A stretch of DNA of 64,000 nucleotides from the NCBI GenBank assembly GCA_025210515.1, contig JAOARM010000013.1:1-64000 (forward strand). The letters run 5' to 3'. The notes below the pieces were generated by a model. That model did no database searches, was not told where the DNA came from, and was given only the letters and a program-made list of their open reading frames with translations. This DNA is from Vallitalea sp. Lineage in GTDB: Bacteria > Bacillota > Clostridia > Lachnospirales > Vallitaleaceae. A program made the translations under genes and the position numbers. How positions within the stretch are numbered: position 1 is the stretch's first letter; every line of letters starts with the position of its first letter. Below are positions 1 through 18,521 of this stretch, one piece after another.

Positions 1-1
1 A

Positions 2-523
2 GAGCAAACAAATCTATTGGCATTAAATGCTGCAATTGAAGCGGCAAGAGCAGGTGAAGCAGGAAAAGGTTTTTCAGTAGTAGCAGAAGAAATAAGAAAG
101 CTTGCAGAACAATCTACTTATTCAACTAAAGAAATTGACTTTGTAGTTAATGAATTAGTTATGAATTCTTCAGGAGCAGTTAAGAAGATGGAAGAAGTAA
201 AAGAAGTAGTTGAAAAACAAATTCTAAGTGTAAAAGAAACAGAAGAAAAATATAATGAAATCTCAGGAGCAGTTAATTCTACAGAAGTTTCAATTGAAAG
301 AATGAGTACCTCTGTTGAAGAAATGGAAAATAGAAAATCTATTATTCTCGATATTATTCAATCACTATCTGCCATAGCAGAGGAAAATGCTGCTGGTACA
401 GAAGAAGCATCTGCATCTACGGAAGAACAATCAGTTTCTATAGAAGAAATGGCTAATTCTAGTAGCAATCTCGCAGAGTTAGCTATGGAATTACAGAAAA
501 CTATAACTAAGTTTAAGATATAA
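2..523 (+). CDS. Methyl-accepting chemotaxis protein, C-terminal part (5' end outside window)
   Basis: This is the C-terminal signalling domain of a chemoreceptor; the gene begins before the window and the frame is open from base 2. The first residues, [20 protein letters not shown] followed by [18 protein letters not shown], are the highly conserved hairpin tip of the cytoplasmic four-helix bundle that contacts CheA and CheW. The rest is heptad-patterned coiled coil rich in E, S and A, including [18 protein letters not shown], which resembles the adaptation (methylation) helices. The sensory part is not visible, so the ligand is unknown. The stop is TAA at 521-523. Confidence 0.95.
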
Positions 524-592
524 GATATTTGAAGGTTAACTTATGATTTAGATAAAAACAAACAAAAAAAAGATGTAGTGAAACGAAGAAAA

Positions 593-656
593 ACCTAAGA
601 TTTACTGCAAAATTATATATTTTCTTGATATAATAGTTGATTTAACAGTAGTAATA
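593..656 (+). promoter_or_regulatory. CRISPR-leader-like sequence upstream of the WYL/cas operon
   Basis: Two blocks here also occur in the CRISPR leader at the same spacing. Block 1 (593-613) matches 10429-10449 at 17 of 21 positions, with the last ten (ACTGCAAAAT) identical. Block 2 (642-656, TTAACAGTAGTAATA) matches 10478-10492 at 14 of 15. Both pairs are separated by exactly 28 bases, while the sequence between them is not conserved (about 11 of 28). TATAAT at 629-634 lies between the blocks and could be a -10 element. A stretch at 695-719 loosely resembles a degenerate CRISPR repeat. Common origin with the leader is inferred; the function is unknown. Confidence 0.6.
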
Positions 657-683
657 CACAACTAAATATAGTTAAATATTAAA

Positions 684-782
684 ATTATAAAATTGTTTAT
701 TAACATTATTATAGTAAAAAATAAGTATTTTGAAGAATACTTATTTTTTTTGTGCGTTATAATGTTAATATTATTTTATAAT
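684..782. repeat. Long inverted repeat enclosing a terminator hairpin
   Basis: ATTATAAAAT (684-693) and ATTAACATTA (699-708) are perfectly complementary to ATTTTATAAT (773-782) and TAATGTTAAT (760-769). Twenty base pairs can therefore form in two blocks around the inner hairpin at 719-750. The arms are almost pure A/T, so stability is modest. Together with the leader-like blocks upstream this makes the region between the chemoreceptor and the WYL gene unusually structured. Confidence 0.55.
719..750 (+). terminator. Intrinsic terminator
   Basis: AAATAAGTATT (719-729) pairs with AATACTTATTT (736-746) around a TTGAAG loop and runs into a tract of T residues. It would end either transcripts from the upstream chemoreceptor or a short RNA started at the leader-like promoter region near 640. 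Confidence 0.8.
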
Positions 783-812
783 GAATATTTACATTGTATA
801 TAATGAATAATG

Positions 813-845
813 TTGGATTATGTAGTATAAAATGTTATAATACTA
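813..845 (+). promoter_or_regulatory. Putative promoter of the WYL gene with overlapping palindrome
   Basis: TTGGAT (813-818) and TATAAT (836-841) are separated by 17 bases, a standard vegetative promoter layout, which predicts a start near 848 and an untranslated leader of about 100 bases. An inverted repeat, TAGTAT (823-828) and ATACTA (840-845), overlaps the -10 element and is a candidate operator, possibly for autoregulation by the WYL protein. The operator role is inference. Confidence 0.5.
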
Positions 846-946
846 TACATGCGCATAATATAACAAAAAAATAAAAAAATAGAAGAATTAAGTTGAATAA
901 TGCATTTATAATTATCATAAATAATTTTAAAAAGAGGAAGATAGTT

Positions 947-1888
947 ATGAGTAAGGTTGGAAATACACTAAAAATGCTTATCCTGCTAAAGAGTAGGGGA
1001 AAGATGAAAATAAGTGAATTATCAAGAGAGCTAGAAGTTGATAGAAGACAAATTATTAGGTACAAAGAAGATCTTGAACAGGCTGGAATATATATAACTT
1101 CAATATCGGGAAGGTATGGAGGATATTATATAGAAGATAAAGATTATTTATTAGGTTTGTATTTAACTGACGAAGAATATAATTCTTTACTTATGGCACA
1201 AAATCAACTTAAATATGAAGAGTTTCTTTTTTATGAAGATTTTAAGATGATTGTTGATAAGCTAAATATAGTTAAAGAAAGAGAAGGTGACTTTCAAACA
1301 GATTATTATATTAAAGGATTTAAAACTAATTTTGATTATAACAAAGAAAGAAAAATTTGGATTGATATAAATGCAGCCACAATAATGAGTAAGAAAATTA
1401 AAATTATGTACAGCTCGTTAAAAAATCAAATGACAGAAAGAATAGTTAGACCATATGGTATCTTTCAATATAAAGGCTCACTTTACTTTGTTGCATTCTG
1501 TGAATATAGAGAAGAAATAAGACAGTTTAAAATTTCACGTATTAAAGAATATGAAATTCTTGAAAATAAGTTTCAAAAAGATACAAGTTTTAATATCAAA
1601 CAATATATGAAAAACAGTATTGGTATATTCAAAGATGGACAAGTTGATCTAAAGCTGAAAATATATTATCCTTCTGCACAAATAGTAAAAGAAAAAATAT
1701 GGGTTGAAGATCAGAAGATTACAGATATCAAAGATTATATAATCTTTGAGGCAAAGATGAGTGGACTTACTGAAATTAAAAGTTGGATATTGAGCATGGG
1801 GAGTGATGTTGAGATTATAGAACCATATGAATTTAAGGAGGACATGAAAAAAGAATTGAAGGAGATGATTAAAATATATAACTTATAA
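947..1888 (+). CDS. WYL-domain transcriptional regulator beside cas operon
   Basis: This is a DNA-binding regulator of the YafY/WYL type, about 313 residues. The N-terminal winged HTH reads KMKISELSRELEVDRRQIIR and continues to the GRYGGYYI wing typical of the family. The centre and C-terminus form the WYL sensor domain (RIVRPYGIFQYKGSLYFVAF, then RQFKISRIKEYEIL) and a WCX-like extension. The ATG at 947 is preferred to a TTG 54 bases upstream because AAAGAGGAAG sits just before it. The gene lies about 130 bases before cas6 on the same strand. WYL proteins are repeatedly found beside CRISPR-Cas loci, where some act as ligand-responsive regulators, so control of this cas operon is a reasonable inference. 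The ligand is unknown. Confidence 0.88.
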   Translation: MSKVGNTLKMLILLKSRGKMKISELSRELEVDRRQIIRYKEDLEQAGIYITSISGRYGGYYIEDKDYLLGLYLTDEEYNSLLMAQNQLKYEEFLFYEDFKMIVDKLNIVKEREGDFQTDYYIKGFKTNFDYNKERKIWIDINAATIMSKKIKIMYSSLKNQMTERIVRPYGIFQYKGSLYFVAFCEYREEIRQFKISRIKEYEILENKFQKDTSFNIKQYMKNSIGIFKDGQVDLKLKIYYPSAQIVKEKIWVEDQKITDIKDYIIFEAKMSGLTEIKSWILSMGSDVEIIEPYEFKEDMKKELKEMIKIYNL

Positions 1889-2018
1889 AAAAAGTTAGAA
1901 AAATTTATTTTATTTACATTCCTTACAAAATAAGTCATGGAATAATAGTATAATTTGTACATAACATATTTAATATCAACTTGTATTGTTTGCATTTCCA
2001 TGAAAGGAGGTGATAGTT

Positions 2019-2756
2019 ATGAGAATTAGCTGTGAATATAAAACAGATAAATTTCCATTAGCATACCATATGTTTGGAGTTAGCCTTATAAAAGAAGCAT
2101 TAATGAAAGTAGATAAAGAGTACTATAATAATCTTTATAAGTATAACAATATAAAATCCAATAAGAGTACAAAAGATTTTTGCTTCTCCGTATATATGCA
2201 AGGCTATGAAAAAAAAGAAGATATATTTCTTATCAAAGATAAAGTAATTTTTAATTTCAGTTCTCCTAACTACGAATTCATGGTTAACTTATATAATGGA
2301 TTATTGGAAATAGAAGCTTTTCGCTATAAAGAGTTTAATCTCAACAAAGTTAAGATTAATTTAGTTAAGGAAAAAAGCATTAATAATGAAGTAGTAACAT
2401 TTAGAACACTATCTCCAATCCACATTAAAGATAAGAATAATATAGCTTTAGATATTAATGATGATAATTTTGTTAAAGAACTTAATTATATAGCTAATAA
2501 AACTCTTGAAAACTATAGAGGATTTGGTTTGAAAAAAGAATTAAAATTCATACCATCAATAAATATGAAAAAAAGAGTTGTCAAACAAGATATAAGAACG
2601 TTTAAAGATAAAACAAACAAGCCTTATTATTATGTTAATAGTTATGTTGGTGAATTTCAACTAGAAGGTAATATTAATGACTTAAAAGAGATATATTTGC
2701 TAGGACTTGGCTTTAAGCTAGGGCAAGGTTTTGGGATGATTGAAGTTGTTAGGTAG
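2019..2756 (+). CDS. cas6: CRISPR pre-crRNA endoribonuclease Cas6
   Basis: Cas6 cuts the precursor CRISPR transcript inside each repeat to make crRNAs. The 245-residue protein ends with the glycine-rich loop that marks the family (LGLGFKLGQGFGMIEVV), and its middle carries the usual TFRTLSPIHI strand. The ATG at 2019 has AAAGGAGG eight bases upstream; a GTG at 2010 overlaps that site and is less likely. It is the first gene of the cas operon, three bases before cas8b. The Cas6-first order with Cst-like partners fits a type I-B (Tneap) system. The catalytic histidine cannot be assigned with certainty by eye; H20 (AYHMFG) is a candidate by position. Confidence 0.93.
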   Translation: MRISCEYKTDKFPLAYHMFGVSLIKEALMKVDKEYYNNLYKYNNIKSNKSTKDFCFSVYMQGYEKKEDIFLIKDKVIFNFSSPNYEFMVNLYNGLLEIEAFRYKEFNLNKVKINLVKEKSINNEVVTFRTLSPIHIKDKNNIALDINDDNFVKELNYIANKTLENYRGFGLKKELKFIPSINMKKRVVKQDIRTFKDKTNKPYYYVNSYVGEFQLEGNINDLKEIYLLGLGFKLGQGFGMIEVVR

Positions 2757-2759
2757 GAG

Positions 2760-4443
2760 ATGATAAAAATAGGTGCTATAAAACTTGAGTTGTCAGATTG
2801 GTTGTATAATGCAGGGGTAGTTGGTCTTGCTAAAATATTAGAGACTTCAGGTGATACAATAAAAAAAGTTGGAAATGTGTTAGAATTTAATGAAGAAGCA
2901 CTTCAAGATTTTGAAGAGAAATATTTTAATTACTTTATTGATAAATACAAACCTTTTACCTCCTGGCAGAGAATTATTTCTTTTGAAGATGAAATTAATA
3001 GTTTTGAGGAAAATACTTTAAATGATGCTTTTATTAATAAATTAAACGATTATATTGAGTATACAAAAACTAAACTTAAAAGTGCAAGTTATAAGAGTGG
3101 TTATGCAATTATTGATGATAATGAAATTGATTTATTGAATGAAGAAAAGAAACTAAAGAAGATAAAAAAGAGTAAAAAACAACTTATTTCGGATTTAGTT
3201 CCTATGATAAAAGAGCAATTAAAATATATACAAGCTATAATTAGTTATCTAAAAAGAGATGATGTAAAAAAAATAATACTTGCCAAAAATATTATTTATG
3301 ATGTAATAGCAAAGTTTTGGTCAGATGTAAGTTTCTTAAATAAGAACAATAGTAAGAATAATATGTACGAGGAATATAAATCATACTTTACTTCTAATAT
3401 TATGACCTATTTAAAAGATGAAAAACACAAATATAAATATCAGTGTTTTAGCTGTGATGCTCCTATTTCAAAATTATCAAAACCAGCTTCTTATGATTTA
3501 ACGTGGGTAAATAAAATGGGAGTAGATATGTCAAGGAAGACATCCCACTTTTGGAATTTTTATGGTGATTCATTTATATGTCCTATATGTAATTTAGTAT
3601 ATTCTTGCATACCTGCAGGATTTACTGTTATTAGGAATAGAGGAATATTTATAAATGAAAATAACTCTATGGAAAATATGATAAAAGTTAATAATACGTC
3701 TATTAATAATAATACAAGTTTTGAAGAACTTGAGGAGAAAAGTTATTTTAAAATAGCAGATAGTATTAAGCAGAGTGAAATAGAAAGAGCTTCAAAAGAA
3801 ATTGATAATATTCAAATTGTTAAGCTGGATAGTCGAAATGATAGAAGACCATATACATTTAATATACTTTCAAAAAAGAAATTACATATTATAGTCAATC
3901 ATAGAAAAAGGTTAAGAGCATTGGTAAATGCCACAGTTAAAGTTAGTTCAAATGATTACATAAATCTTTATAGAGAAGTTATTGGAAGACTTTATAATAA
4001 TAAAAATCAGTTTGATATTATTAATAAACTTTTAATTTTGAATTTAGACGGAAAATTCAATAGGCTGGGATATGTTAAATCAATTATAAACATAAACAAT
4101 GATTTTATAGGAGGTATTATGGGAAAACAAAGTGTTTATTATAAAGATATAGATAAAATTCAGCAGTTAGGATATGAATTAAGAAACATATATGAAATTA
4201 AGAAAGCTGATAATAAGATTAGCGGAATATGTTATAGACTTCTAAATGCTTTAAAAACAAAAAATCAGAATAGATTTATGGATACATTAATAAATGCTTA
4301 TATGTATGGAGGAAAGCAAATTCCTGTTATACTGCTTGATGCATTAAAAGGTGATGATAAACTCCAGACTGTAGGCTATGCTTTTATACTTGGATTACAG
4401 GGAGAAAGTGGAAAATTAAACTTAGGTAAGGAGGAAAAAGGTA

Positions 4444-4451
<8 letters not shown>
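2760..4451 (+). CDS. cas8b: Type I-B Cascade large subunit Cas8b (Cst1-like)
   Basis: This 563-residue protein sits where the Cascade large subunit, which recognises the PAM and target, is expected. It has a zinc-finger-like pair of cysteine motifs, CFSC at residues 229-232 and CPIC at 274-277, separated by a segment with SHFWNFYGDSF, as in the Cas8a1/Cst1 (Tneap) family. The N-terminus (IKLELSDWLYNAGVVGLAKI) is also typical of that family. The start ATG lies three bases after the cas6 stop with a GGAG overlapping the stop. The 3' end overlaps cas7 by eight bases, suggesting translational coupling. Cas8 families diverge quickly, so the subfamily label is less sure than the role. Confidence 0.9.
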
Positions 4452-6104
<1,653 letters not shown>

Positions 6105-6173
6105 GATAGGGTGCATAACCCTATCTTTTCTAAAGAAACTCAGATAAATTATTTTGCAAGAAAGGATAATTAT

Positions 6174-8501
6174 ATGAATAAATTTCTAGCAAAAACATAT
6201 CCAAGAGAAACAATAGCAGAGCATACGCTATGTTTGATTAATAGAATGGAAACACTAAAAAAATTATATCCTAATATTCCTTATCTTGATTGGGAATTAT
6301 TAAAACTTGCTTGTATGTATCATGATCTTGGAAAAATGAATTCAAAATTTCAAAATAAACTACTTAATAAATTAGGTGAAAAAGAAATCGAAGATATAAT
6401 TAAAGATTCAAAAGAAATACCACACGGATATTTAAGCCCTGCATTTTTACCATTAAGAGAACTAAAGAAAAAATATAAGGGAAATAGAGATAAATTAAGG
6501 ATTTTATATCAAAGTATCTATTATCACCATAATAGAGAGAAAATATATGATTTTACTCTAATTGAAGATGCAATAGAAAAAGACTTAAAAAGACACTGGC
6601 AGTATTTTAATGATTTAGACATTAATAGAGAAGAAAAATTATATAAAAGTTATCTAAAATATATTGATGATAAGAATAGATTTTCAAGAAGTGATGATGA
6701 AGATAATAATAGTTATTACGAATATGTGATTACAAAAGGAATATTGAATAGATTAGACTATGCTGGCAGTGCTCATATCAATGTAGAAGAAGAAAATAAA
6801 GATTTATACAAGAGAACAATTAATTCAATAATAGAAAAAGGATATAAACTAAATGAACTTCAAGTATATATTAATAATAATTTGGAACAGAACAATATAA
6901 TTAGAGCTTCAACAGGTATTGGCAAAACAGAAGCAGCTTTAATCTGGATTGGGGATAACAAGGGATTTTTCACATTACCATTAAGAGTATCTATTAATGC
7001 AATATATGACAGAATAAGAGACGAAGAAAACATAGGCTTTCAAAATACTGCATTGCTACACTCTGATACTTTTAGAGAATATTTAAAAAGAGGTAATAAA
7101 GATAAAATAAAAAACAATCAAATTATAGATATGGATTATTATGAAAAAACTAAGCAGTTTTCTATGCCCTTAACAATATGTACACTGGATCAACTTTTAG
7201 ATTTTATTTTCAAATATGAGGGGTATGAATTGAAGTTGGCAACATTATCTTATTCAAAATTAGTCATTGATGAAATTCAAATGTATTCTCCAGATATGCT
7301 TGGATATTTAATTGTAGCACTAAAATATATAACAGAAGCAGGTGGGAGATTTACAATACTTACAGCTACTTTACCACGAATTATCGTAGATTTTATGAAA
7401 AAAGAAAATATTCCATTTAAAGAATCTATAACTTTTTGTAAGAAAAATGAAAAAGGAGAACCACAGTTAAGACACAAAGTAGAGGTATTAGAAGAGTATA
7501 TTAATATTAATCATATTAAAGAGAATTATAAAGATAAAAAAGTTCTTATCATAGTGAATACAGTAAGACAAGCTCAAAAAATATATAATGATCTTATTAA
7601 TGAAGAACTTAATACACCTATTAAAATGTTTCATAGCAGATTTATTAAGAAAGACAGAAGCTTGAAAGAAGATGAAATATTTAAGATGGGACAGAGGAAA
7701 TGTAAAGATACAGGAATATGGGTAACGACACAAGTTGTTGAAGCAAGCTTAGATATTGATTTTGATGTATTATATACAGAGCTATCGGAAATATCAGGAC
7801 TACTTCAGAGAATGGGTAGGGTGTATAGAGGAAGAGATTTAGATAGTGATAATACTAATGTATATGTATATATTGGTAAAGATAAACCTACTTCTGGTAT
7901 AAGAAACGATGAACGAAGTATAGTTGATATAGATATCTTTAATTATTCTAAAGAAGCAGTGAAGGGGATAAATGGAGAGAAAATTGATGAAGAGAAAAAA
8001 ATGCAACTTGTAGAAATGGTATATACTGAAAAAAACTTAAAGGATTCTTCCTATTATAAGAAAATGAATGATGCTATTATATGGGCTAAAAATATAAAAG
8101 AATATGAATTACATAGAAATGAAGCAAGGCTTAGAAATATTGTAACATATCCTATTTTACCTAAATGTGTATATGAATTAAATGATGATAATGATAGAAT
8201 TAATTTTGCTTTAAACAAAATAGTAAAATATAAAATCCAGATGAAAGAAGAAAAGGATAAGATAAAATTACAAAATTTATACGTTAAGATTCAGAAAGAA
8301 AAATATAAAATAAAAGATTATACAGTAGATATACCTGGATATATGTTTGAAACAGCTAAAAAAAATAATAAGATTGTTGAGGTAATAGAACTTGATAAAT
8401 TTAATAATATACCTATTGTAAATATTGATTATACCTCTGAAAATGGATTAGGGAAAATTACAAATAAAAGCGAGTTTGATGAAGATTTACAATTTATCTA
8501 G
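6174..8501 (+). CDS. cas3: CRISPR helicase-nuclease Cas3 with N-terminal HD domain
   Basis: Cas3 unwinds and degrades target DNA recruited by Cascade. The N-terminal HD nuclease shows MYHDLGKMNSKFQ, HGYLSPAF and YHHNR. The SF2 helicase follows with Walker A ASTGIGKTEAALIW, Walker B VIDEIQMY (DEIQ in place of DEAH), TATLP and motif VI QRMGRVYRGR. The 775-residue length from this ATG fits the family. The ATG at 6174 is preceded by AAAGGATAATTAT and gives the usual MNKFLAKTYPRETIAEHT opening. A GTG at 6111, seven bases after cas5, would add 21 residues and cannot be excluded. HD and helicase parts are fused and intact. Confidence 0.95.
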   Translation: MNKFLAKTYPRETIAEHTLCLINRMETLKKLYPNIPYLDWELLKLACMYHDLGKMNSKFQNKLLNKLGEKEIEDIIKDSKEIPHGYLSPAFLPLRELKKKYKGNRDKLRILYQSIYYHHNREKIYDFTLIEDAIEKDLKRHWQYFNDLDINREEKLYKSYLKYIDDKNRFSRSDDEDNNSYYEYVITKGILNRLDYAGSAHINVEEENKDLYKRTINSIIEKGYKLNELQVYINNNLEQNNIIRASTGIGKTEAALIWIGDNKGFFTLPLRVSINAIYDRIRDEENIGFQNTALLHSDTFREYLKRGNKDKIKNNQIIDMDYYEKTKQFSMPLTICTLDQLLDFIFKYEGYELKLATLSYSKLVIDEIQMYSPDMLGYLIVALKYITEAGGRFTILTATLPRIIVDFMKKENIPFKESITFCKKNEKGEPQLRHKVEVLEEYININHIKENYKDKKVLIIVNTVRQAQKIYNDLINEELNTPIKMFHSRFIKKDRSLKEDEIFKMGQRKCKDTGIWVTTQVVEASLDIDFDVLYTELSEISGLLQRMGRVYRGRDLDSDNTNVYVYIGKDKPTSGIRNDERSIVDIDIFNYSKEAVKGINGEKIDEEKKMQLVEMVYTEKNLKDSSYYKKMNDAIIWAKNIKEYELHRNEARLRNIVTYPILPKCVYELNDDNDRINFALNKIVKYKIQMKEEKDKIKLQNLYVKIQKEKYKIKDYTVDIPGYMFETAKKNNKIVEVIELDKFNNIPIVNIDYTSENGLGKITNKSEFDEDLQFI

Positions 8502-8509
8502 GTGGTGAT

Positions 8510-9031
8510 ATTATAAAATTCCAATTAGAAAAATTTAAAACACAAGGAGTAAAAGTAAACTACTATTATGTATGCAAAAGAAAGCTATGGTTATTCTCAA
8601 AAGGAATAGCAATGGAAGGAACAAGCGATAGGGTACTAAGTGGAAAATTAGTTCACGAGGATTCATATAAGAGAAAAAATAAAGAAATACTAATAGATGA
8701 TATATTGAAATTAGATATACTAGATAAAGATTATGTAAGAGAAGTTAAAATAAGTAGTAAGCTTACAGAACCCGATAAAATGCAATTATATTATTATCTG
8801 TTCTATCTAAAAAACATAGGAATTTATAAGAAAGGTTCAATAAATTATGTAAAAGAAAAAAAGGTAGAAATAATTGAACTTACACCAGAGATAGAAGATA
8901 AGATAATTAATACATTAATAGATATAAAAAGAATTACTTGTGATAATAAGCCTCCAAAATTGAATAGATTACCTTACTGTACTAAATGTGCATATTATGA
9001 ATTTTGTTTTGTGAAAGAAGATGATATATAA
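8510..9031 (+). CDS. cas4: CRISPR adaptation nuclease Cas4, probably starting at a non-canonical ATT codon
   Basis: Cas4 is a RecB-like Fe-S nuclease that trims prespacers and helps select PAM-side ends. The reading frame opens after a TGA at 8480 and has no ATG, GTG or TTG until 8612. The conserved N-terminal block, including VNYYYVCKRKLWLFS with its first Fe-S cysteine, lies upstream of that ATG. The best start is ATT at 8510 behind AGGTGGTG (ATA at 8513 is the alternative), giving 173 residues, the normal Cas4 size. Starting at 8612 would delete the first cysteine. The C-terminal cluster CTKCAYYEFC is present. The stop overlaps the cas1 start in TAATG. Confidence 0.85.
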   Translation: MIKFQLEKFKTQGVKVNYYYVCKRKLWLFSKGIAMEGTSDRVLSGKLVHEDSYKRKNKEILIDDILKLDILDKDYVREVKISSKLTEPDKMQLYYYLFYLKNIGIYKKGSINYVKEKKVEIIELTPEIEDKIINTLIDIKRITCDNKPPKLNRLPYCTKCAYYEFCFVKEDDI

Positions 9032-10011
9032 TGGATAGAGATTACTATATATTTAGTAGTGGGCGATTAAAGAGAAAAGACAATACAATATATTTTATAG
9101 ATGAACAAGGAAGTAAAAGATCATTACCTATTGAACAAACAAGTAAAATTCATATTTTTGGAGAAGTAGATTTTAATACTAAGCTTCTTAACTATTTATC
9201 TCAATATGGTCTAATGCTTAATATTTATAATTATTATGGATTTTATTCTGGAACGTATTATACAAGAAAAAAGAATGTATCTGGTTTTTTGATTGTTAAT
9301 CAAGCTATGCATTATAATTATGATGATAAAAGGCTATATTTGGCAAAACAATTTATTGATAGTGCGGTTCATCATATATTAAGAAATCTAAGAAATTATA
9401 AGGATACTGGAAACTACATAGAAAAAATACAAGTGGAAAGAGAAAAAGTATTAAATGTAAATTATATAGATGAATTAATGGGAGCCGAAGGAAGAATAAG
9501 GAAAATATATTATCAAGCATTTAATATTATTCTAAAAAATGGATTTGAGTTTAAAAAAAGAGAGAAACGTCCCCCTACAGACCCAATAAATGCTTTGATT
9601 TCTTTTGGTAATAGCCTAATGTATACAACAGTATTAGGAGAAATATATAAAACACAGCTTGACCCAACAATCAGTTTTCTACACCAGCCTTCAACAAAAA
9701 GATTTTCACTTAGCTTAGACATTGCTGAGATATTTAAACCGTTAATAATTGACCCTATAATCTTTAGCTTAATCAATAATAGAAGAATAAAATCTCAAGA
9801 TTTTGATATTGAAGAAGGTATATGCTTTCTTAATGAAGATGGAAGAAAGAAATTTATTTCTGAATATGAAAAGAAGCTAGTAGTCACTATTAAACATAGA
9901 TCATTAAAAAGAAAAGTTTCTTATAGAATGTTCATAAGACTTGAATGCTATAAGTTAATTAAACACTTTATTGATGATAAGAGATATAAACCACTTAAAG
10001 CATGGTGGTAA
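9031..10011 (+). CDS. cas1: CRISPR integrase Cas1
   Basis: Cas1, with Cas2, integrates new spacers at the leader end of the array. In this 326-residue protein the metal-binding catalytic residues are visible: E153 in GAEGRIRK, H218 in FLHQPS and D230 in SLDIAEIFKP. The N-terminal beta domain includes YIFSSGRLKRKDNTIYF, normal for type I-B Cas1. The ATG overlaps the cas4 stop by one base. Conserved active-site residues indicate that adaptation is probably functional. Confidence 0.97.
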   Translation: MDRDYYIFSSGRLKRKDNTIYFIDEQGSKRSLPIEQTSKIHIFGEVDFNTKLLNYLSQYGLMLNIYNYYGFYSGTYYTRKKNVSGFLIVNQAMHYNYDDKRLYLAKQFIDSAVHHILRNLRNYKDTGNYIEKIQVEREKVLNVNYIDELMGAEGRIRKIYYQAFNIILKNGFEFKKREKRPPTDPINALISFGNSLMYTTVLGEIYKTQLDPTISFLHQPSTKRFSLSLDIAEIFKPLIIDPIIFSLINNRRIKSQDFDIEEGICFLNEDGRKKFISEYEKKLVVTIKHRSLKRKVSYRMFIRLECYKLIKHFIDDKRYKPLKAWW

Positions 10012-10073
10012 ATATAATTTTTTATTATATAGTATCAAATAATTGAAATCAATGATATAATGGTGGTGGCATT

Positions 10074-10337
10074 TTGTTTGTGATTATAACCTATGATATA
10101 GAAGATAAGAGAATAAATAAAGTAAGAAAAACTCTTAAAAAATATTTAACATGGACTCAAAATTCAGTATTTGAGGGTGAGATAACAGAGGGAAAACTAC
10201 ATAAGTGTTTATCAGAGATTAATAAACTAATAGACAAGAAAACAGACTCTATATATGTATATAGAGTAAAAATATCCAAGAACATCAAAAAAGATGTTAT
10301 TGGTATAGAAAAGAATTTTAATGAGTTATTTTTATAA
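10074..10337 (+). CDS. cas2: CRISPR adaptation protein Cas2
   Basis: Cas2 forms the central dimer of the Cas1-Cas2 integration complex. The 87-residue length is normal. The N-terminal beta strand with the conserved aspartate, FVIITYDIEDKR, is followed by RKTLKKYLTWTQNSVFEGEI, both diagnostic. A TTG at 10074 is chosen because GGTGGTGG lies four bases upstream and it gives the usual MFVIITYD start. A GTG two codons later is possible. It is the last cas gene; the leader follows directly. Confidence 0.96.
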   Translation: MFVIITYDIEDKRINKVRKTLKKYLTWTQNSVFEGEITEGKLHKCLSEINKLIDKKTDSIYVYRVKISKNIKKDVIGIEKNFNELFL

Positions 10338-10522
10338 AAGTGCAGTAATGCAAACAAATGTTCTTGATGTGTTAAAGCCTTGAATTTACTAGCTTTTAAG
10401 GTCATTTGATATGATTTAATAAAACAACACTAAAGGTTCACTGCAAAATCAATGATTATTGTAATTTCAATAATCTCTTAACACTAGTAATATCAATGGT
10501 TTAAGGAATATGTTTTTTGGGG
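10338..10522 (+). promoter_or_regulatory. CRISPR leader
   Basis: This A/T-rich, non-coding stretch of 185 bases lies between cas2 and the first repeat and contains no repeat. It is the expected site of the pre-crRNA promoter and of new spacer integration. Two blocks, 10429-10449 and 10478-10492, recur at the same spacing upstream of the WYL gene (593-656). Its end is a TTTTTTGGGG run just before the first repeat. Orientation as leader follows from its position beside cas1-cas2 and from the only variant repeat lying near the other end of the array. Confidence 0.8.
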
Positions 10523-13069
10523 GTTTTATATTAACTACGTGAGATGTAAATTTCATTAGGGTGGTGGGATAATGTTTTACGATAAAGAGTTTTATATTAA
10601 CTACGTGAGATGTAAATGACTGGATTCCTGATTGGGCAGGAGGGGGGCAATCTTGTTTTATATTAACTACGTGAGATGTAAATTAGCAAGATGTTCAGTT
10701 GATGGTTCTAAGCTATGGTTTGTTTTATATTAACTACGTGAGATGTAAATTTGATTACATAATCATTTTTAGAGATTAACATATCGTTTTATATTAACTA
10801 CGTGAGATGTAAATAAGGCAGGTACAAAACTTTTGAACTGGCTTACTGACAGTTTTATATTAACTACGTGAGATGTAAATATAAATGATAGTAAAGAAGA
10901 TGCATATAGAAGAAGGTTTTATATTAACTACGTGAGATGTAAATCTACAACACCAAATTTAAAAGCTGGTAAACCTTATAGTTTTATATTAACTACGTGA
11001 GATGTAAATATTATTAAGTCCATCTTAGATATGCACAGCATCAATGTTTTATATTAACTACGTGAGATGTAAATTGATGATGGTGGCACATTTGGTAAAG
11101 AGAATGCTATAGTTTTATATTAACTACGTGAGATGTAAATCTGACTACCTGTTAGGAAATTCTAATAATTCCGAAACGTTTTATATTAACTACGTGAGAT
11201 GTAAATGTTAAGTCTTTAGAATTACTCATATCGCTCCAACTCCGTTTTATATTAACTACGTGAGATGTAAATTAAAAACTGTATGACCAATTTTCTTTTC
11301 CATTTCCATGTTTTATATTAACTACGTGAGATGTAAATAAACTAAGCTTTACTATTTATATAATATTTTCTATGTTTTATATTAACTACGTGAGATGTAA
11401 ATTGCTATGTACTCTCTGTAATTTTTCTTGTTGTTTTGGTTTTATATTAACTACGTGAGATGTAAATGAGACAATCTATTATTACAAAAGCTCTGCATAT
11501 GCAAGTTTTATATTAACTACGTGAGATGTAAATAGGCTTAAATTATTGAATAATAGACGTGAAATACGTGTTTTATATTAACTACGTGAGATGTAAATGG
11601 AGAACAAGAAGAACAAGAAGAAACAACTATCTCGTTTTATATTAACTACGTGAGATGTAAATATATAAGCTAGATAATAATAAGCAGGTTAAAAATACGT
11701 TTTATATTAACTACGTGAGATGTAAATTATTTTCTAACAAGATCATTTCTAGCTTCGTACTTAGTTTTATATTAACTACGTGAGATGTAAATTGAAGTAT
11801 TTGCTTACATACACAACTCCTATTCTCCCGTTTTATATTAACTACGTGAGATGTAAATCGTTAACTATAAAGTCACCGTCAAATTTACTTCCATGTTTTA
11901 TATTAACTACGTGAGATGTAAATTAGTAATAATAATATTATTATTCTTTACATTCTTGGTTTTATATTAACTACGTGAGATGTAAATAAAAACAATAAAA
12001 AAGATTTGGAAGTATGACGGAGGTTTTATATTAACTACGTGAGATGTAAATGCCAGAAGAACAGGAATAAAGTAATCTGTATCCTTAGTTTTATATTAAC
12101 TACGTGAGATGTAAATTTTTCTAACTTAGCATTATATGGTTTTGCATTATCAGTTTTATATTAACTACGTGAGATGTAAATTTGAAATTCTTTGTCATAA
12201 AAATCATCGTCTAGCTTTGTTTTATATTAACTACGTGAGATGTAAATCTAACATTGGCAATAATCTTGTTAATAATGGCATAAAGTTTTATATTAACTAC
12301 GTGAGATGTAAATTGATAAAATAGTGGGTTATAAAGATGATGGTCAACAGTTTTATATTAACTACGTGAGATGTAAATACTATCAGTTATTACGTAGCAG
12401 ATGATAAGGTAGCTGGTTTTATATTAACTACGTGAGATGTAAATTTTTGTGAGCTGTGGTTAATTGATAATAAAACACAAGTTTTATATTAACTACGTGA
12501 GATGTAAATCAAGGAGTTGGTAAGTACAATGACGGCAGACCGACAGGTTTTATATTAACTACGTGAGATGTAAATAATAATTATTTGCAAAAAAATATAT
12601 ATCAATTCACGTTTTATATTAACTACGTGAGATGTAAATATTAATTGTTATGTGCTATCTGATGCATTTGGAGAAGGTTTTATATTAACTACGTGAGATG
12701 TAAATTCAAGCAAGTGACAGATACTATTATTCGTGATCTAAAGTTTTATATTAACTACGTGAGATGTAAATTTTATTACTATCTTCTGCATTAAATCACC
12801 TCTATCGTGTTTTATATTAACTACGTGAGATGTAAATACACAATAGCCAAAATATAATATATCCCAATCTATCCGTTTTATATTAACTACGTGAGATGTA
12901 AATTTAGCGTAAGTGTAAACACCCACACCTTGCAATTTATCGTCTTCCAAGAGTCTTAATCTCTGTTTTATTCTTGTTTTATATTAACTACGTGAAATGT
13001 AAATAAAGAAAATAAAGACTATGTTGTATTTATAATTGATGTTTTATATTAACTACGTGAGATGTAAAT
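10523..13069 (+). CRISPR. CRISPR array, 39 repeats of 29 bp and 38 spacers
   Basis: The repeat is GTTTTATATTAACTACGTGA followed by GATGTAAAT, 29 bases, closely resembling known clostridial type I-B repeats. I count 39 copies by position, with start-to-start steps of 64-67 bases, so spacers are 35-38 bases long. The exception is the 37th spacer, which is 72 bases. All repeats look identical except number 38 (12976-13004), which has A for G in the GTGAGATG segment. Near-perfect repeats, an intact Cas1 and a full effector set suggest an active system. Short apparent coding frames across the array are artefacts of the repeat. Confidence 0.99.
12904..12975. other. Double-length (72 bp) CRISPR spacer
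   Basis: Between repeats 37 and 38 lies 72 bases instead of 35-38. No degraded repeat can be seen in its middle. Its reverse complement is open in one frame (ending LEDDKLQGVGVYTYA), as expected if one contiguous piece of a foreign gene was captured. Just before repeat 38 the sequence GTTTTATTCTT imitates the repeat start. Confidence 0.85.
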
Positions 13070-13158
13070 AAAACTAATTCTAAGAGCACAAGTAAAGCTA
13101 GTATAACTATAAATTCAACATTATTTGTAAAATAAATTATGATAAAACTAAATAAAAT

Positions 13159-14358
13159 CTAAGTCAATTCCTTCACAATCTCATTAACAGATAAATACAG
13201 ATTTCCAAGTTCTGGTTTTGATATAAGAGAACCTATTAACCTCATATTACTGTCTTTTTGTCTATTGAACAATTCTTCATAAAAATCTTCAGTCAGTTTT
13301 TTATTCTCTACATGAGGAAATATATCCCATTGTTTCACAGTAATTAATCGTTTAATATCAATACCTGTATGACATAAATCATTAGTAATATTATCAATGA
13401 TTTTGTTATTAGCTATTCCATAAGCATAAGCTACTAATATTGTTTTATGATTATGTCTTGAAGTATGAAAACATTGGATTTTTCCTTTTTTACCAAGATT
13501 AGTTTTATAGTATGTTGTAGTCAGTTTTTTATTAGTTACTTCAAAAGCACATGAAATAAAAGGATTAGTTATAACTTTTTCCATGAATTTATTATAAAAT
13601 TGATTTTTAATAACGCCTATTGGTAGCTTAGTAGCAATAAGAACTTTATCAAAACTCTCTGAATTATAGATAGTATCAACAATAACTTTATTGTCTTTTA
13701 TATCTATATTGGTAACTTCAAGTGATAATCTAATATCAGATACTTTTTTACTTAATTTATGAATAAGTTCCGTTGTTCCTTTTTTAATAAATAACAGTTT
13801 CTTGCCTTGGATAAACGTATATATAGTATTAATATTAAATGTTTTAAAAGCATAGTAAGCTTGTACATCTTCAATATTGCCAAAGCCAAAAGATGATAAA
13901 TATGGCTCTATAACATGATGAACTATATTAAGATTATTATTTTTTAGAAAAGTTTTGAGAGGTACTAATAAATCTTTATGAATATTACCGTAGTTAGTAC
14001 CTTGGAGAATAGGAGTATATCTATCAAGAATTACACGTAGTCTATTAAGTTCCTCTATTAACAAAGAAATTTCGTCACTTAACATATGCTCTACATTATT
14101 ATAGTTGTCATCAATATAATTTCTATATATAAAACGTTCCGTATAATCAATTTGTAGTTCGATTAATAATTCTTTAATAGATTTAGAAAAAAGCACAGTA
14201 GTTCCCAATTCTATATTTTCATTAATACTGGCAATAGTTCTGCAATGACCACCTAAATACTCCTGTTTTTCATATACAGTAACGTCAATACCTTCTTTTT
14301 CTAATAAATAAGCTGCAAGCATTCCGCTAAATCCTGCTCCTATAATTGCTACTTTCAT
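13159..14358 (-). CDS. FAD-dependent amine-oxidase/protoporphyrinogen-oxidase-like flavoprotein (module A)
   Basis: This is a predicted cytoplasmic flavoprotein of about 399 residues. It opens with the dinucleotide-binding motif VAIIGAGFSGMLAAYLLEKE, the acidic strand end VTVYEK and the GGHCRTI motif of the amine oxidase/phytoene desaturase superfamily. A C-terminal segment near MRLIGSLISKPELGN sits where the second FAD-contacting motif is expected but is weak. The ATG at 14358 has AAGGAG six bases upstream. It lies 16 bases after the integrase-like HTH gene on the same strand, so the two are probably co-transcribed. A homologous pair occurs at 45452-47756. The substrate is unknown; I would not assign a specific enzyme. 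Confidence 0.85.
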   Translation of the reverse strand: MKVAIIGAGFSGMLAAYLLEKEGIDVTVYEKQEYLGGHCRTIASINENIELGTTVLFSKSIKELLIELQIDYTERFIYRNYIDDNYNNVEHMLSDEISLLIEELNRLRVILDRYTPILQGTNYGNIHKDLLVPLKTFLKNNNLNIVHHVIEPYLSSFGFGNIEDVQAYYAFKTFNINTIYTFIQGKKLLFIKKGTTELIHKLSKKVSDIRLSLEVTNIDIKDNKVIVDTIYNSESFDKVLIATKLPIGVIKNQFYNKFMEKVITNPFISCAFEVTNKKLTTTYYKTNLGKKGKIQCFHTSRHNHKTILVAYAYGIANNKIIDNITNDLCHTGIDIKRLITVKQWDIFPHVENKKLTEDFYEELFNRQKDSNMRLIGSLISKPELGNLYLSVNEIVKELT

Positions 14359-14374
14359 CACAAGCTCCTTATAA

Positions 14375-15361
14375 TTAGTATTGTCTATCTATATATGCCC
14401 ATATAGGCAGAATAAGCTTTGAGTTAGTTAATTTGTTGTGATATTCAACAGGTGAACAGTAAACTAAATCATATAAATATTGGTTATTAATATTATGATT
14501 TTTAATATGCTGTTGCAATTTAGTTCTAAGATCTGCAAGAGGCATACCTTCATTAATTAATGGAAGTAAGACAGTTATGGAGTCCTTTGTATATTGAGAA
14601 CGAAGATTATAAAATCTGTCTATGTTATTATTATCTGATAATATATGTATATCAACGTCAAATCCACTATCATTCAAAATTACGTTTAATTTTGATGAAA
14701 AATCTTTGCCAAAATATTTTGTTAACTTGGAATAATCGAAGAAACATAGATACTTGGCATTCATACTTAATGTTAGTGCAACAGGTAAAGCTACAGCAGT
14801 CAATAAATCTTCAAAACATTCATAGCAAAAAGATGTATATAATCTAGAACAAGCTATTCTACTTTTTAAATCCAGTAGTGTATATTCATATAGATTACCA
14901 ATGTTATCAAAATAACCATAATCTGTAATCCAGAAGCTCCAGCATTCACCACTGTTAAGTTCATTAATGCTTGGAATTGTTTCTACTTGTTTTTTCTCTC
15001 TTTTTCTTGCGAAGGAAATACGACTTTCCTTATTAGTAAGATTATGTCTTTTCATTACATTAAATACAGCTGATTCACTAATATAGTAATCAATTTCTTC
15101 TAGAAGATACTTTATAGCTCTTGGACCGTAATGAGGATATGTTTTTATAAGATTAAATATTGCTTTTTCAATTATATGATTAGTTTTATTAGGAGGAACA
15201 AAATTTTTCTTAATATCTTCCAAACCTTCCATGCCAAGGGATTGATATCTTTTTAACCATTTATAATAAATTGTTCTTGATATATTGTATTTTTGGCATG
15301 TAGAACTTATTCCATTTTTTTGTCCTTCTGTAATTATTTGAAATTTTAAATCTTTTTGCAT
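14375..15361 (-). CDS. HTH protein with divergent IS481-like integrase core (module A)
   Basis: The 328-residue protein has the layout of an IS481/IS3-type transposase. It carries an HTH (residues about 10-45, GISSTCQKYNISRTIYYKWL), then YPHYGPRAIKYLLEE and VFNVMKRHNLTNK. A region resembling the DDE integrase core follows (FWITDYGYFD to LLDLKSR). By eye the first aspartate (WITD) is kept, the second lies in a changed context (FFDYSKL rather than DNGSEF), and the final glutamate appears to be aspartate (NIDRFYN). No terminal inverted repeats or target duplications flank it. It is partnered with a flavoprotein gene. I read it as a transposase-derived DNA-binding protein, not an active insertion sequence. 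The ATG at 15361 follows GGAG. Confidence 0.75.
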   Translation of the reverse strand: MQKDLKFQIITEGQKNGISSTCQKYNISRTIYYKWLKRYQSLGMEGLEDIKKNFVPPNKTNHIIEKAIFNLIKTYPHYGPRAIKYLLEEIDYYISESAVFNVMKRHNLTNKESRISFARKREKKQVETIPSINELNSGECWSFWITDYGYFDNIGNLYEYTLLDLKSRIACSRLYTSFCYECFEDLLTAVALPVALTLSMNAKYLCFFDYSKLTKYFGKDFSSKLNVILNDSGFDVDIHILSDNNNIDRFYNLRSQYTKDSITVLLPLINEGMPLADLRTKLQQHIKNHNINNQYLYDLVYCSPVEYHNKLTNSKLILPIWAYIDRQY

Positions 15362-15746: not shown

Positions 15747-18521
15747 ATGTCTAAGAACATGAAGAAAACAGATTTTAACATGTCCAAAATTTACGATTTT
15801 GCTTTGACGTGGGGTGATGTTGGGGATAGAGAATATAGACAAGAAGTTCTTGATCTGGCTAACAAAATCGCAAGAGTGAAAGCTGGAAGTAAAAGAGAAT
15901 GTGTTCCATTTGGCCCTGAATACTGCATACTTGAAACTGTACTTGATGAATATCAAGCAAAATTAGCTATGCATATTGAGTTTCGTGAGAAGAGAAGTGC
16001 ACAAGATATTGCAACAGCTTCAGGAGAACCTCTTGATAAGGTTACAGAGACACTAGAATATATTGCATGGACAGGGCTTGCATTTGTTAATAACATTAAC
16101 GGCGTTGATGTATACTGGCAAGATATCTATGTTCCAGGGCATATGGAGATGATAGTAAATAACAAAGAGCTTGTTGCAAAATATCCAGAAATAGGAGAGG
16201 CATTTTATTATTTCGGTAGAAAAAAAGGCCCAATGGCAGCAGGAATTATGCCAATAGGCGGTGGACCAATGCGTGTAATCCCTATTGAGAGAGCTATTGA
16301 CGGTAATACAAAAAGAGCATCTTATGAAGAAGTTTCAAAACATTTGAATGAAGCAACTGTTTTCTCTGTATCTGATTGTTCATGTAGAACATCACGTGAA
16401 GCAATGGGAGAAGGTTGTGGTCACTTAAAAGAAGATATGTGTATTCAATTAGGTCACGCAGCTGAATATTATATTAGAACTGGACGTGGAAGAGAGATTA
16501 CAAGAGAAGAAGCATTTGAAATCATTAGAAAAGCAGAGGACAATGGTTTAATGCATTCTATACCTAATTATGACGGTCCAGGACATACTCATGCAATTTG
16601 TAATTGTTGTGGATGTGGTTGTTATGCTATGAGACTTGCAAACGAGTTTGTTAATGGTGATATAGTTAGATCAAATTATAAAGCAGTTGTAGATGAAGAA
16701 AAATGTGTAGCCTGTGGTGAATGTGTAGAATCTTGTCCAACAAATGCTCTTCGTTTAGGACAAAAACTATGTTCAACTAAACCTATTGATGAGGTTATAA
16801 CAAAAGTAACTCCTAGAAATACTGAGTGGACAGAAGATAAATTAAATAGAGATTACAGAACTAATAGAAAAAATACGCTAGATTCAGGAACTGCACCTTG
16901 TATTACAAAATGCCCAGCTCATATACCAGTACAAGGATATATTAAGCTTGCAGCACAAGGTAAATATACAGAAGCACTAGAACTTATTAAAAAACATAAT
17001 CCTTTACCAGCAGTGTGTGGACGTGTCTGTCCAAGGCTTTGCGAGGAAGACTGTACTCGTGGTGAAGTGGATGAAGCTGTTGCAGTTGATGATATTAAGA
17101 AGTTTATTGCACAAAAAGATTTAGAAAGCGATAAGAGATATATTCCAAGAATTAGGCATAATTATAGCGATAAAAAAATAGCTATTATAGGAGGAGGACC
17201 TACAGGACTTACATGTGCATACGATTTAGCAATTGATGGTTATGACATTACTGTATTTGAAAAACAAGAACGACTTGGAGGTATGTTAACTCTTGGTATT
17301 CCATCATATAGACTAGAAAAAGACGTTATAGAAGCTGAAATAGACGTAATAAGACAAATGGGTGTCAAATTCAAAACAGGAGTAGAAGTTGGCAAAGATA
17401 TTACTATTGAGAAACTAAGAAATCAAGGATATAATGCGTTCTACGTTGCTATTGGTGCTGGAGCAGGTAGAAAAATCGGTATTGAAGGGGAAGATGCTAC
17501 TGAGGTAATTAGTGGTGTAGAATTTCTAAGAACTATTAACTTAGGAAATAAACCAGAAGTAAAAGGTAAAGTTGTTGTTATTGGTGGAGGGAACGTTGCT
17601 ATTGACGTTGCTAGGTCATCAGCAAGACTTGATGATGTTACTTCAACTGATATATTCTGTCTTGAATCAAGAGAAATAATGCCTGCTCACGATGAAGAAG
17701 TAAAAGAGGCATTGGAAGAAGAAGTAAATATTAACAATTCTTGGGGTCCAGTAAAAGTCGTTACAGAAAATGGTAAAGTAACAGGTATTGAATTTAAAAG
17801 ATGTTTATCTGTATTTGACGAAGATGGAAGATTCAATCCTAAGTATGACGAGAAAGATACTAAAGTAGTTGAATGTGATTACATATTATTATCAGTAGGT
17901 CAAACATATGACTATGGAAATTTATTTGCTGGTGAATCAGTGGAGCTTACAAACAGAAAAACTATTAAAGTTGACCCTATAACTCTTCAAACAACTGTAG
18001 ACGATATATTTGCAGGTGGTGATGTAGCAAGCGGACCTAGATTAGCTATTGATGCAATAGCCGCAGGGAAAGAAGCAGCTATTTCAATACATAGATTTGT
18101 TCAACACGGTCAGTCATTAGTATTTGGTAGAGATAATCATTCTTACATAATGTTAGATAAGCAAAATCTTGATTATTCTCAAGGTTATGATGTTAGTGGA
18201 AGACAGAAGATTGAACATATTGATGGTAAAGTAGCCAAAAAAACTTTCAAAGATTTAAGAGGTATACTTACGGAAGAACAGATTAAGAAAGAGACTAATA
18301 GATGTCTGGGCTGTGGTGCTACTAAAACTGACCAGTATTTATGTGTAGGATGTGGTCAATGTACACTTAAATGTAAGTTTGACGCTATTAAACTTGTAAA
18401 AGTTCATAATGTAGCAGGATTTGAATTTGAAAACTTATCAAAAGCAGTTATTAAAAAAGCTATTACTAGAAAAGCTAAAATAAAAGTTAATAAGATTAAT
18501 CCTTTTGTAAAAACAAGATAA
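15747..18521 (+). CDS. Large Fe-S/FAD/NAD(P) oxidoreductase with GltD-like core (module A paralogue)
   Basis: The 924-residue cytoplasmic redox protein has several parts. An N-terminal region of about 300 residues ends with cysteine clusters (SDCSCRTSREAMGEGCGH and CNCCGCGC). A ferredoxin motif follows, CVACGECVESCP. A GltD/NfnB-like Fe-S segment comes next (APCITKCPAHIPVQGYIKLA, then CGRVCPRLCEEDCTRG). The FAD site is IAIIGGGPTGLTCAYDLA and the NAD(P) site VVVIGGGNVAIDVARSSA. The C-terminus carries further clusters, CLGCGAT and CVGCGQCTLKCKFDAI. This suits electron transfer between NAD(P)H and ferredoxin or an unknown acceptor. ATG at 15747 follows TATGGAGG. A close paralogue lies at 48778-51474 between hypB and hypA. 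The physiological substrate is unknown. Confidence 0.85.
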   Translation: MSKNMKKTDFNMSKIYDFALTWGDVGDREYRQEVLDLANKIARVKAGSKRECVPFGPEYCILETVLDEYQAKLAMHIEFREKRSAQDIATASGEPLDKVTETLEYIAWTGLAFVNNINGVDVYWQDIYVPGHMEMIVNNKELVAKYPEIGEAFYYFGRKKGPMAAGIMPIGGGPMRVIPIERAIDGNTKRASYEEVSKHLNEATVFSVSDCSCRTSREAMGEGCGHLKEDMCIQLGHAAEYYIRTGRGREITREEAFEIIRKAEDNGLMHSIPNYDGPGHTHAICNCCGCGCYAMRLANEFVNGDIVRSNYKAVVDEEKCVACGECVESCPTNALRLGQKLCSTKPIDEVITKVTPRNTEWTEDKLNRDYRTNRKNTLDSGTAPCITKCPAHIPVQGYIKLAAQGKYTEALELIKKHNPLPAVCGRVCPRLCEEDCTRGEVDEAVAVDDIKKFIAQKDLESDKRYIPRIRHNYSDKKIAIIGGGPTGLTCAYDLAIDGYDITVFEKQERLGGMLTLGIPSYRLEKDVIEAEIDVIRQMGVKFKTGVEVGKDITIEKLRNQGYNAFYVAIGAGAGRKIGIEGEDATEVISGVEFLRTINLGNKPEVKGKVVVIGGGNVAIDVARSSARLDDVTSTDIFCLESREIMPAHDEEVKEALEEEVNINNSWGPVKVVTENGKVTGIEFKRCLSVFDEDGRFNPKYDEKDTKVVECDYILLSVGQTYDYGNLFAGESVELTNRKTIKVDPITLQTTVDDIFAGGDVASGPRLAIDAIAAGKEAAISIHRFVQHGQSLVFGRDNHSYIMLDKQNLDYSQGYDVSGRQKIEHIDGKVAKKTFKDLRGILTEEQIKKETNRCLGCGATKTDQYLCVGCGQCTLKCKFDAIKLVKVHNVAGFEFENLSKAVIKKAITRKAKIKVNKINPFVKTR

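Follow-up and report, generated by a model that had tools for sequence, protein, structure and literature searches.

Upstream of the cas operon of a Vallitalea type I-B CRISPR locus, two short blocks match the leader of the locus' own array with exactly the native spacing. We consider it reasonably probable that this stretch (588-656) is a truncated and decayed copy of a type I-B leader, left behind by a lost array upstream of the WYL-cas operon and followed by an unrelated terminator hairpin. Two of the four landmarks of a leader are kept at native spacing (motifs A and B), while the inverted partner of motif A and the first repeat are missing, and the loss of an upstream array would explain this combination.

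The window, that is the complete 64 kb stretch of DNA analysed here, contains a complete type I-B CRISPR locus, consisting of a WYL regulator gene, eight cas genes and an array, all on the plus strand. The first gene of the cas operon encodes a WYL-domain transcriptional regulator (947-1888; HTH_11, WYL and WCX domains according to Pfam) and is followed by cas6, cas8b1/cst1, cas7, cas5b, cas3, cas4, cas1 and cas2 (2019-10337; NCBIfam and Pfam) and by 39 copies of the repeat GTTTTATATTAACTACGTGAGATGTAAAT (10523-13069). One spacer of this array (12904-12975) is roughly double the usual length, with 72 bases, and perhaps represents two spacers that have lost the repeat between them. A chemotaxis gene ends at 523, and the gap of 423 bases from there to the WYL gene contains the element. 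A search of positions 1-15000 against Rfam at gathering thresholds gave no match, and a blastn search of the element's own genome for related sequences returned none, except for the self-match of the hairpin and weak A+T-rich matches. For comparison, WYL-cas relatives were gathered from named genomes and from further genomes, and these loci are labelled with L-numbers. The nearest relative of the WYL protein found in the genomes searched has 61% identity, and this Cas8b is present in no other genome of the same genus among those examined. Relatives of the WYL protein were also sought on viral contigs and plasmids, where none was found.

Leader-like motifs upstream of the WYL gene

The true leaders of the related loci share a fixed plan, in which motif A´ is followed by motif A, motif B and the first repeat. 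A´ (such as TGCAGTAAACC) is located 92-94 bases before its partner A (GGTTTACTGCA) in all 17 leaders measured, B follows 43-45 bases after A and is weak or absent in some leaders, and the distance to the first repeat is 79-83 bases for A and 36-38 bases for B. In related clostridial type I-B leaders the consensus of motif A is GGTTYACTGCA / GGTTYACTGCAAAA and that of motif B is AGTAATATCAATG. The leader of the window array (10341-10522, plus strand) follows this plan, with A´ at 10341 (TGCAGTAATGC), A at 10435 (GGTTCACTGCA), B at 10486 and the repeats starting at 10523. A´ and A form an inverted pair, TGCAGTRARC / GYTYACTGCA, which is present at 10341-10445 in the window and in 16 other leaders with the fixed spacing of 92-94 bases, and whose halves carry matching changes, for example in the leader of L059. 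Two conserved inverted-repeat motifs have been reported for all leaders of C. difficile 630 in PMC8406132, and the A´/A motifs are presumably the same.

In the gap upstream of the WYL gene, the ten-base core ACTGCAAAAT at 604-613 is found again at 10440-10449 in the true leader, and TTAACAGTAGTAATA at 642-656 is identical to TTAACACTAGTAATA at 10478-10492 in 14 of 15 positions. Both blocks have one constant offset to the true leader, so that no gap is needed, and the sequence between them has diverged. This arrangement had been pointed out in the preliminary description and is confirmed. In a composition-aware local alignment of the leader to the gap, the score is 27.2, whereas shuffles average 16.2 (P ~7e-4), and the gap piece ranks first when 570 window pieces of its size are compared. 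The distance from TGCA (606) to AGTAATA (650) is 44, exactly as from 10442 to 10486 in the true leader, and the score of the motif pair was reached by none of 2000 shuffles.

Weight matrices for leader motifs, built without the window, recognise a copy of motif A on the plus strand at 588-613 (GAAAAACCTAAGATTTACTGCAAAAT). It is present but degenerate, with scores of 16.2 and 12.8 compared to about 30 for the true leader; in the matrix giving 12.8, a single site in the 64 kb besides the leader scores higher (15.0, minus strand). The motif B copy on the same strand (642-656) matches the leader of the window closely, yet its score in the cross-species motif B matrix is low. A TATAAT between the two blocks, seen in the preliminary description as well, is indeed located at 629-634 on the plus strand and could be a -10 box; it has no canonical -35 at 16-18 bases, and the consensus promoter scan reported no promoter there. 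The inverted partner A´ is absent at 92-94 bases before motif A, a position that falls within the chemotaxis gene. The best candidate is TGTAGTGAAAC at 574, an imperfect inverted half-site 25 bases upstream.

Such a match might also arise by chance. The gap would then be an A+T-rich intergenic region of the usual kind, ending in a terminator hairpin, and two of its short words would coincide by accident with leader words that are spaced alike. From the shuffle P value, about 0.4 matches of this score are expected per 64 kb. In addition, blastn with the leader as query lists 39 other places in the whole genome and not the element, the motif B copy fits motif B of other species poorly, and motifs A and B occur together upstream of the WYL gene in no other WYL-cas locus examined. 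The short match, the blastn result and the missing conservation also count against a leader remnant. However, the complete ten-base core is present, the spacing is exactly the native one, and the best of all 570 pieces is the single most relevant intergenic region. The match is modest, and it is the place before the cas operon that makes it notable, rather than its strength. By virtue of this place the similarity to the leader is probably real, and we regard a chance resemblance as rather unlikely.

If the blocks are a leader remnant, an array with its own leader would once have been located upstream of the WYL-cas operon. The array would then have been lost and part of the leader would have stayed, with A and B kept and A´ and a usable repeat gone. 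A whole array with its own leader is found upstream of the WYL gene in L061. The preliminary description had named the relic of a second array as one of three options, and of these it fits best, given motifs A and B at native spacing and the array in L061. The match between the blocks is poor, and this suggests that the element descends from a different leader and was not copied recently from the present one. A point against the remnant is that kept blocks with a diverged middle are better explained by constraint, or by descent from another leader, than by simple neutral decay of a duplicate of the leader now in place.

The same pattern is what would be expected of binding sites. A regulator, perhaps the WYL protein itself, might bind motif A or B both at the leader and before the WYL-cas operon and thus coordinate the expression of array and cas genes. 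That motif A in leaders is one half of an inverted pair with fixed spacing is consistent with such an operator or shared promoter, as is the imperfect inverted half-site at 574. Nevertheless, motif A half-sites upstream of WYL genes are rare, with four loci including the window, and when overlapping matches are counted as one, their occurrence in relatives does not clearly exceed chance. Furthermore, the constant distances of 94, 44 and 37 bases leading up to the repeat speak for a role in the leader or in integration. A shared operator is therefore improbable. Little probability likewise goes to an extended version, in which A and B would be a candidate protein-binding module, copied or evolved before the cas operon and co-regulating array and cas genes, with the 119-base hairpin downstream as attenuator of the WYL-cas transcript.

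The terminator hairpin and the supposed repeat

Downstream of the motif copies, the plus strand contains a long A+T-rich imperfect inverted repeat of about 119 bases (673-791), which is 73-76% self-complementary in blastn; positions 670-800 fold as one hairpin with -32.5 kcal/mol and a z-score of -6.1. The tip of this hairpin is a perfect 14-base stem of 716-729 with 736-749, AAAAAATAAGTATT / AATACTTATTTTTT, that is followed by T's. Inverted repeat and folding (716-749, plus strand) thus show that the intrinsic terminator proposed previously is real in form. The terminator scan lists none, because the stem is too A+T-rich for its G+C criterion. For the WYL-cas operon, the consensus scan gives TTTATA-18-TATAAT at 775-804 on the plus strand as the best promoter-like site (10 of 12 matches). 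Its -35 falls within the 3´ arm of the hairpin, and the count of promoter-like sites in this region is not above expectation. On the reading as a leader remnant, the hairpin would be unrelated to the leader, and its terminator might insulate the operon by stopping, ahead of the WYL-cas promoter, any transcription that comes from the chemotaxis gene upstream or from a leader promoter that has survived.

A stretch at 695-719 had been thought to resemble the repeat. This resemblance is not confirmed; the stretch is one arm of the hairpin at 673-791, and its score is at chance level. The best repeat candidate starts at 692, 86 bases after TGCA and thus near the usual 79-83, and its alignment to the repeat is no better than chance (P 0.33); positions 692-720 on the plus strand are the 5´ arm of the hairpin and contain no recognisable repeat. 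The scan for degenerate repeats upstream of the WYL gene also found the window no better than shuffles.

CreR-like elements in related loci

The element could also encode a functional RNA of the CreR type, in which a leader-driven transcript with a degenerate repeat at 692-720 would carry a guide in the terminator stem and repress the cas promoter via Cascade. The position upstream of a WYL-cas operon together with a terminator fits such an RNA, and the CreR-like elements of five relatives are found at the same place. For a direct test, any guide start was combined with any PAM-flanked site, and handle, guide and target were scored, with sixth positions left unscored; the PAM used was YCN, taken from PMC8406132. 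The best score in the window was 14, while shuffles average 14.6 and the five relatives score 20-25. The partial complementarity next to a PAM in the cas or WYL promoter, for which the preliminary description had proposed to look, is thus not seen above chance. A single 8-base seed with CCA was seen (guide start 703, target at TGG near 814), but it has the wrong register. The element also lacks a repeat-derived handle similar to ATGTAAAT, and a guide would be locked inside the terminator stem. None of the spacers of the window array targets the WYL promoter or the gap, and matches to a guide acting in trans on the CCA site near 814 are no commoner than those to a reversed control pattern. A minus-strand reading of the window with a psi-repeat (ATGTAAAT at about 790, recognised by eye) was dropped after scans of both strands had given no guide-target pair. 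Judged from sequence, the window element is not a recognisable CreR, and we consider a functional CreR-type RNA here very unlikely. The CreA/CreR proposal thus suits the type of locus and not the window, which has no handle, guide or PAM-flanked target.

In the relatives the picture is different. Clear degenerate repeats upstream of the WYL gene were found by the repeat scan in L061, L079, L082, L094 and L095, with L056 near the shuffle limit, and the separate guide/PAM scan ranks the same five loci first (scores 20-25); five of the six control loci pass the guide-target test. The five elements look like CreR-like mini-arrays in which two psi-repeats enclose a guide, and the WYL-cas promoter region holds the PAM-flanked target; in L061 the psi-repeat starts at 3780 and the target lies at about 3993. 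All five guides start directly after a repeat-like handle, which agrees with the repeat in 7-8 of 8 bases. The guides are TGATTAGTGAAaGTT (L061), TGATTtATATGaATAA (L079), AGTGGTGAAATtTATA (L082), AGTTTtAATACTAAGAT (L094) and GTAAAaAAAGTtATTTACTA (L095), where lower case marks a mismatch and the target adjoins CCA or CCT. In guide positions 1-16, mismatches occur at 7 of 10 sixth positions and at 1 of 70 others, a contrast that is partly built in because the scan left sixth positions unscored. Pairing by Cascade, as in type I effectors, would allow mismatches at sixth positions.

Motif A is absent from the CreR-like elements of the relatives, and a good motif B is present in L056 alone. Leader motifs in the window therefore point to an array leader and not to a CreR. 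As far as the sequences can tell, leader motifs occur in the window in the absence of a CreR, and most of the candidate CreRs of the relatives lack leader motifs. The comparison with the same position in related type I-B loci, suggested earlier, thus yielded CreR-like elements in five relatives and in no locus examined a second pair of A and B.

Several other loci of the set deserve mention. In L056/L130, the region upstream of the WYL gene carries a terminator, degenerate repeats and an almost exact motif B, but no promoter target, and an upstream HTH-like reading frame is interrupted by a stop; this element is perhaps a decayed CreR. A stretch after the preceding gene in C. difficile (L063-L071) had been taken for a psi-repeat by eye and was discarded, as the scan gave L063 no more than a chance score. 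The main array of L116 has GTAAAAAAAGTTATTTACTATCTAAAAATAAAG as its last spacer, followed by a degenerate repeat and a terminator. All three are found again upstream of the WYL gene as the CreR, with two bases of the guide changed (about 1745 and 15837-15960 of the reverse complement). The terminal spacer of L116 also matches the WYL promoter next to CCA. These sequences suggest that the CreR of L116 arose by copying of the array end, or the reverse. In L120, which is on the same contig as L048 of C. rectalis, the last of 27 spacers begins with TTAAATAAA and matches 9 bases next to CCC upstream of the WYL gene; it could be a self-regulating terminal spacer or a chance match.

Comparison with known systems

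With C. difficile-like clostridial type I-B leaders (PMC8406132), the element shares motif A with its core ACTGCAAAA and has a candidate motif B at the 44-base spacing. In contrast to these leaders, it lacks the inverted partner at 94 bases before motif A, is not followed by a recognisable repeat at the distance usual for leaders, and has no array. CreRs are cas-regulating crRNA-like RNAs according to two reviews (PMC12737573, PMC13131331), and the element resembles them in its location upstream of a cas operon and in its terminator. It differs from them in lacking degenerate repeats above chance, a handle, a guide and a PAM-flanked promoter target, all of which are present in the five relatives. 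With the CreA of type I-B CreTA modules, as reviewed in PMC12737573, it shares only a candidate short transcript beside cas genes, and unlike CreA it has no psi-repeats and no target.

If the element is a relic, its own interest is limited, and it points to a second array that formerly belonged to this cas locus. In loci such as that of the window, in which no CreR is recognised, cas expression may be controlled mainly by the WYL regulator. The comparison matters more, since it reveals CreR-like elements before the WYL-cas type I-B operons of at least five clostridial genomes, and with the guide, second psi-repeat and terminator of the CreR present at the array end of L116, an origin of CreRs from array ends becomes testable.
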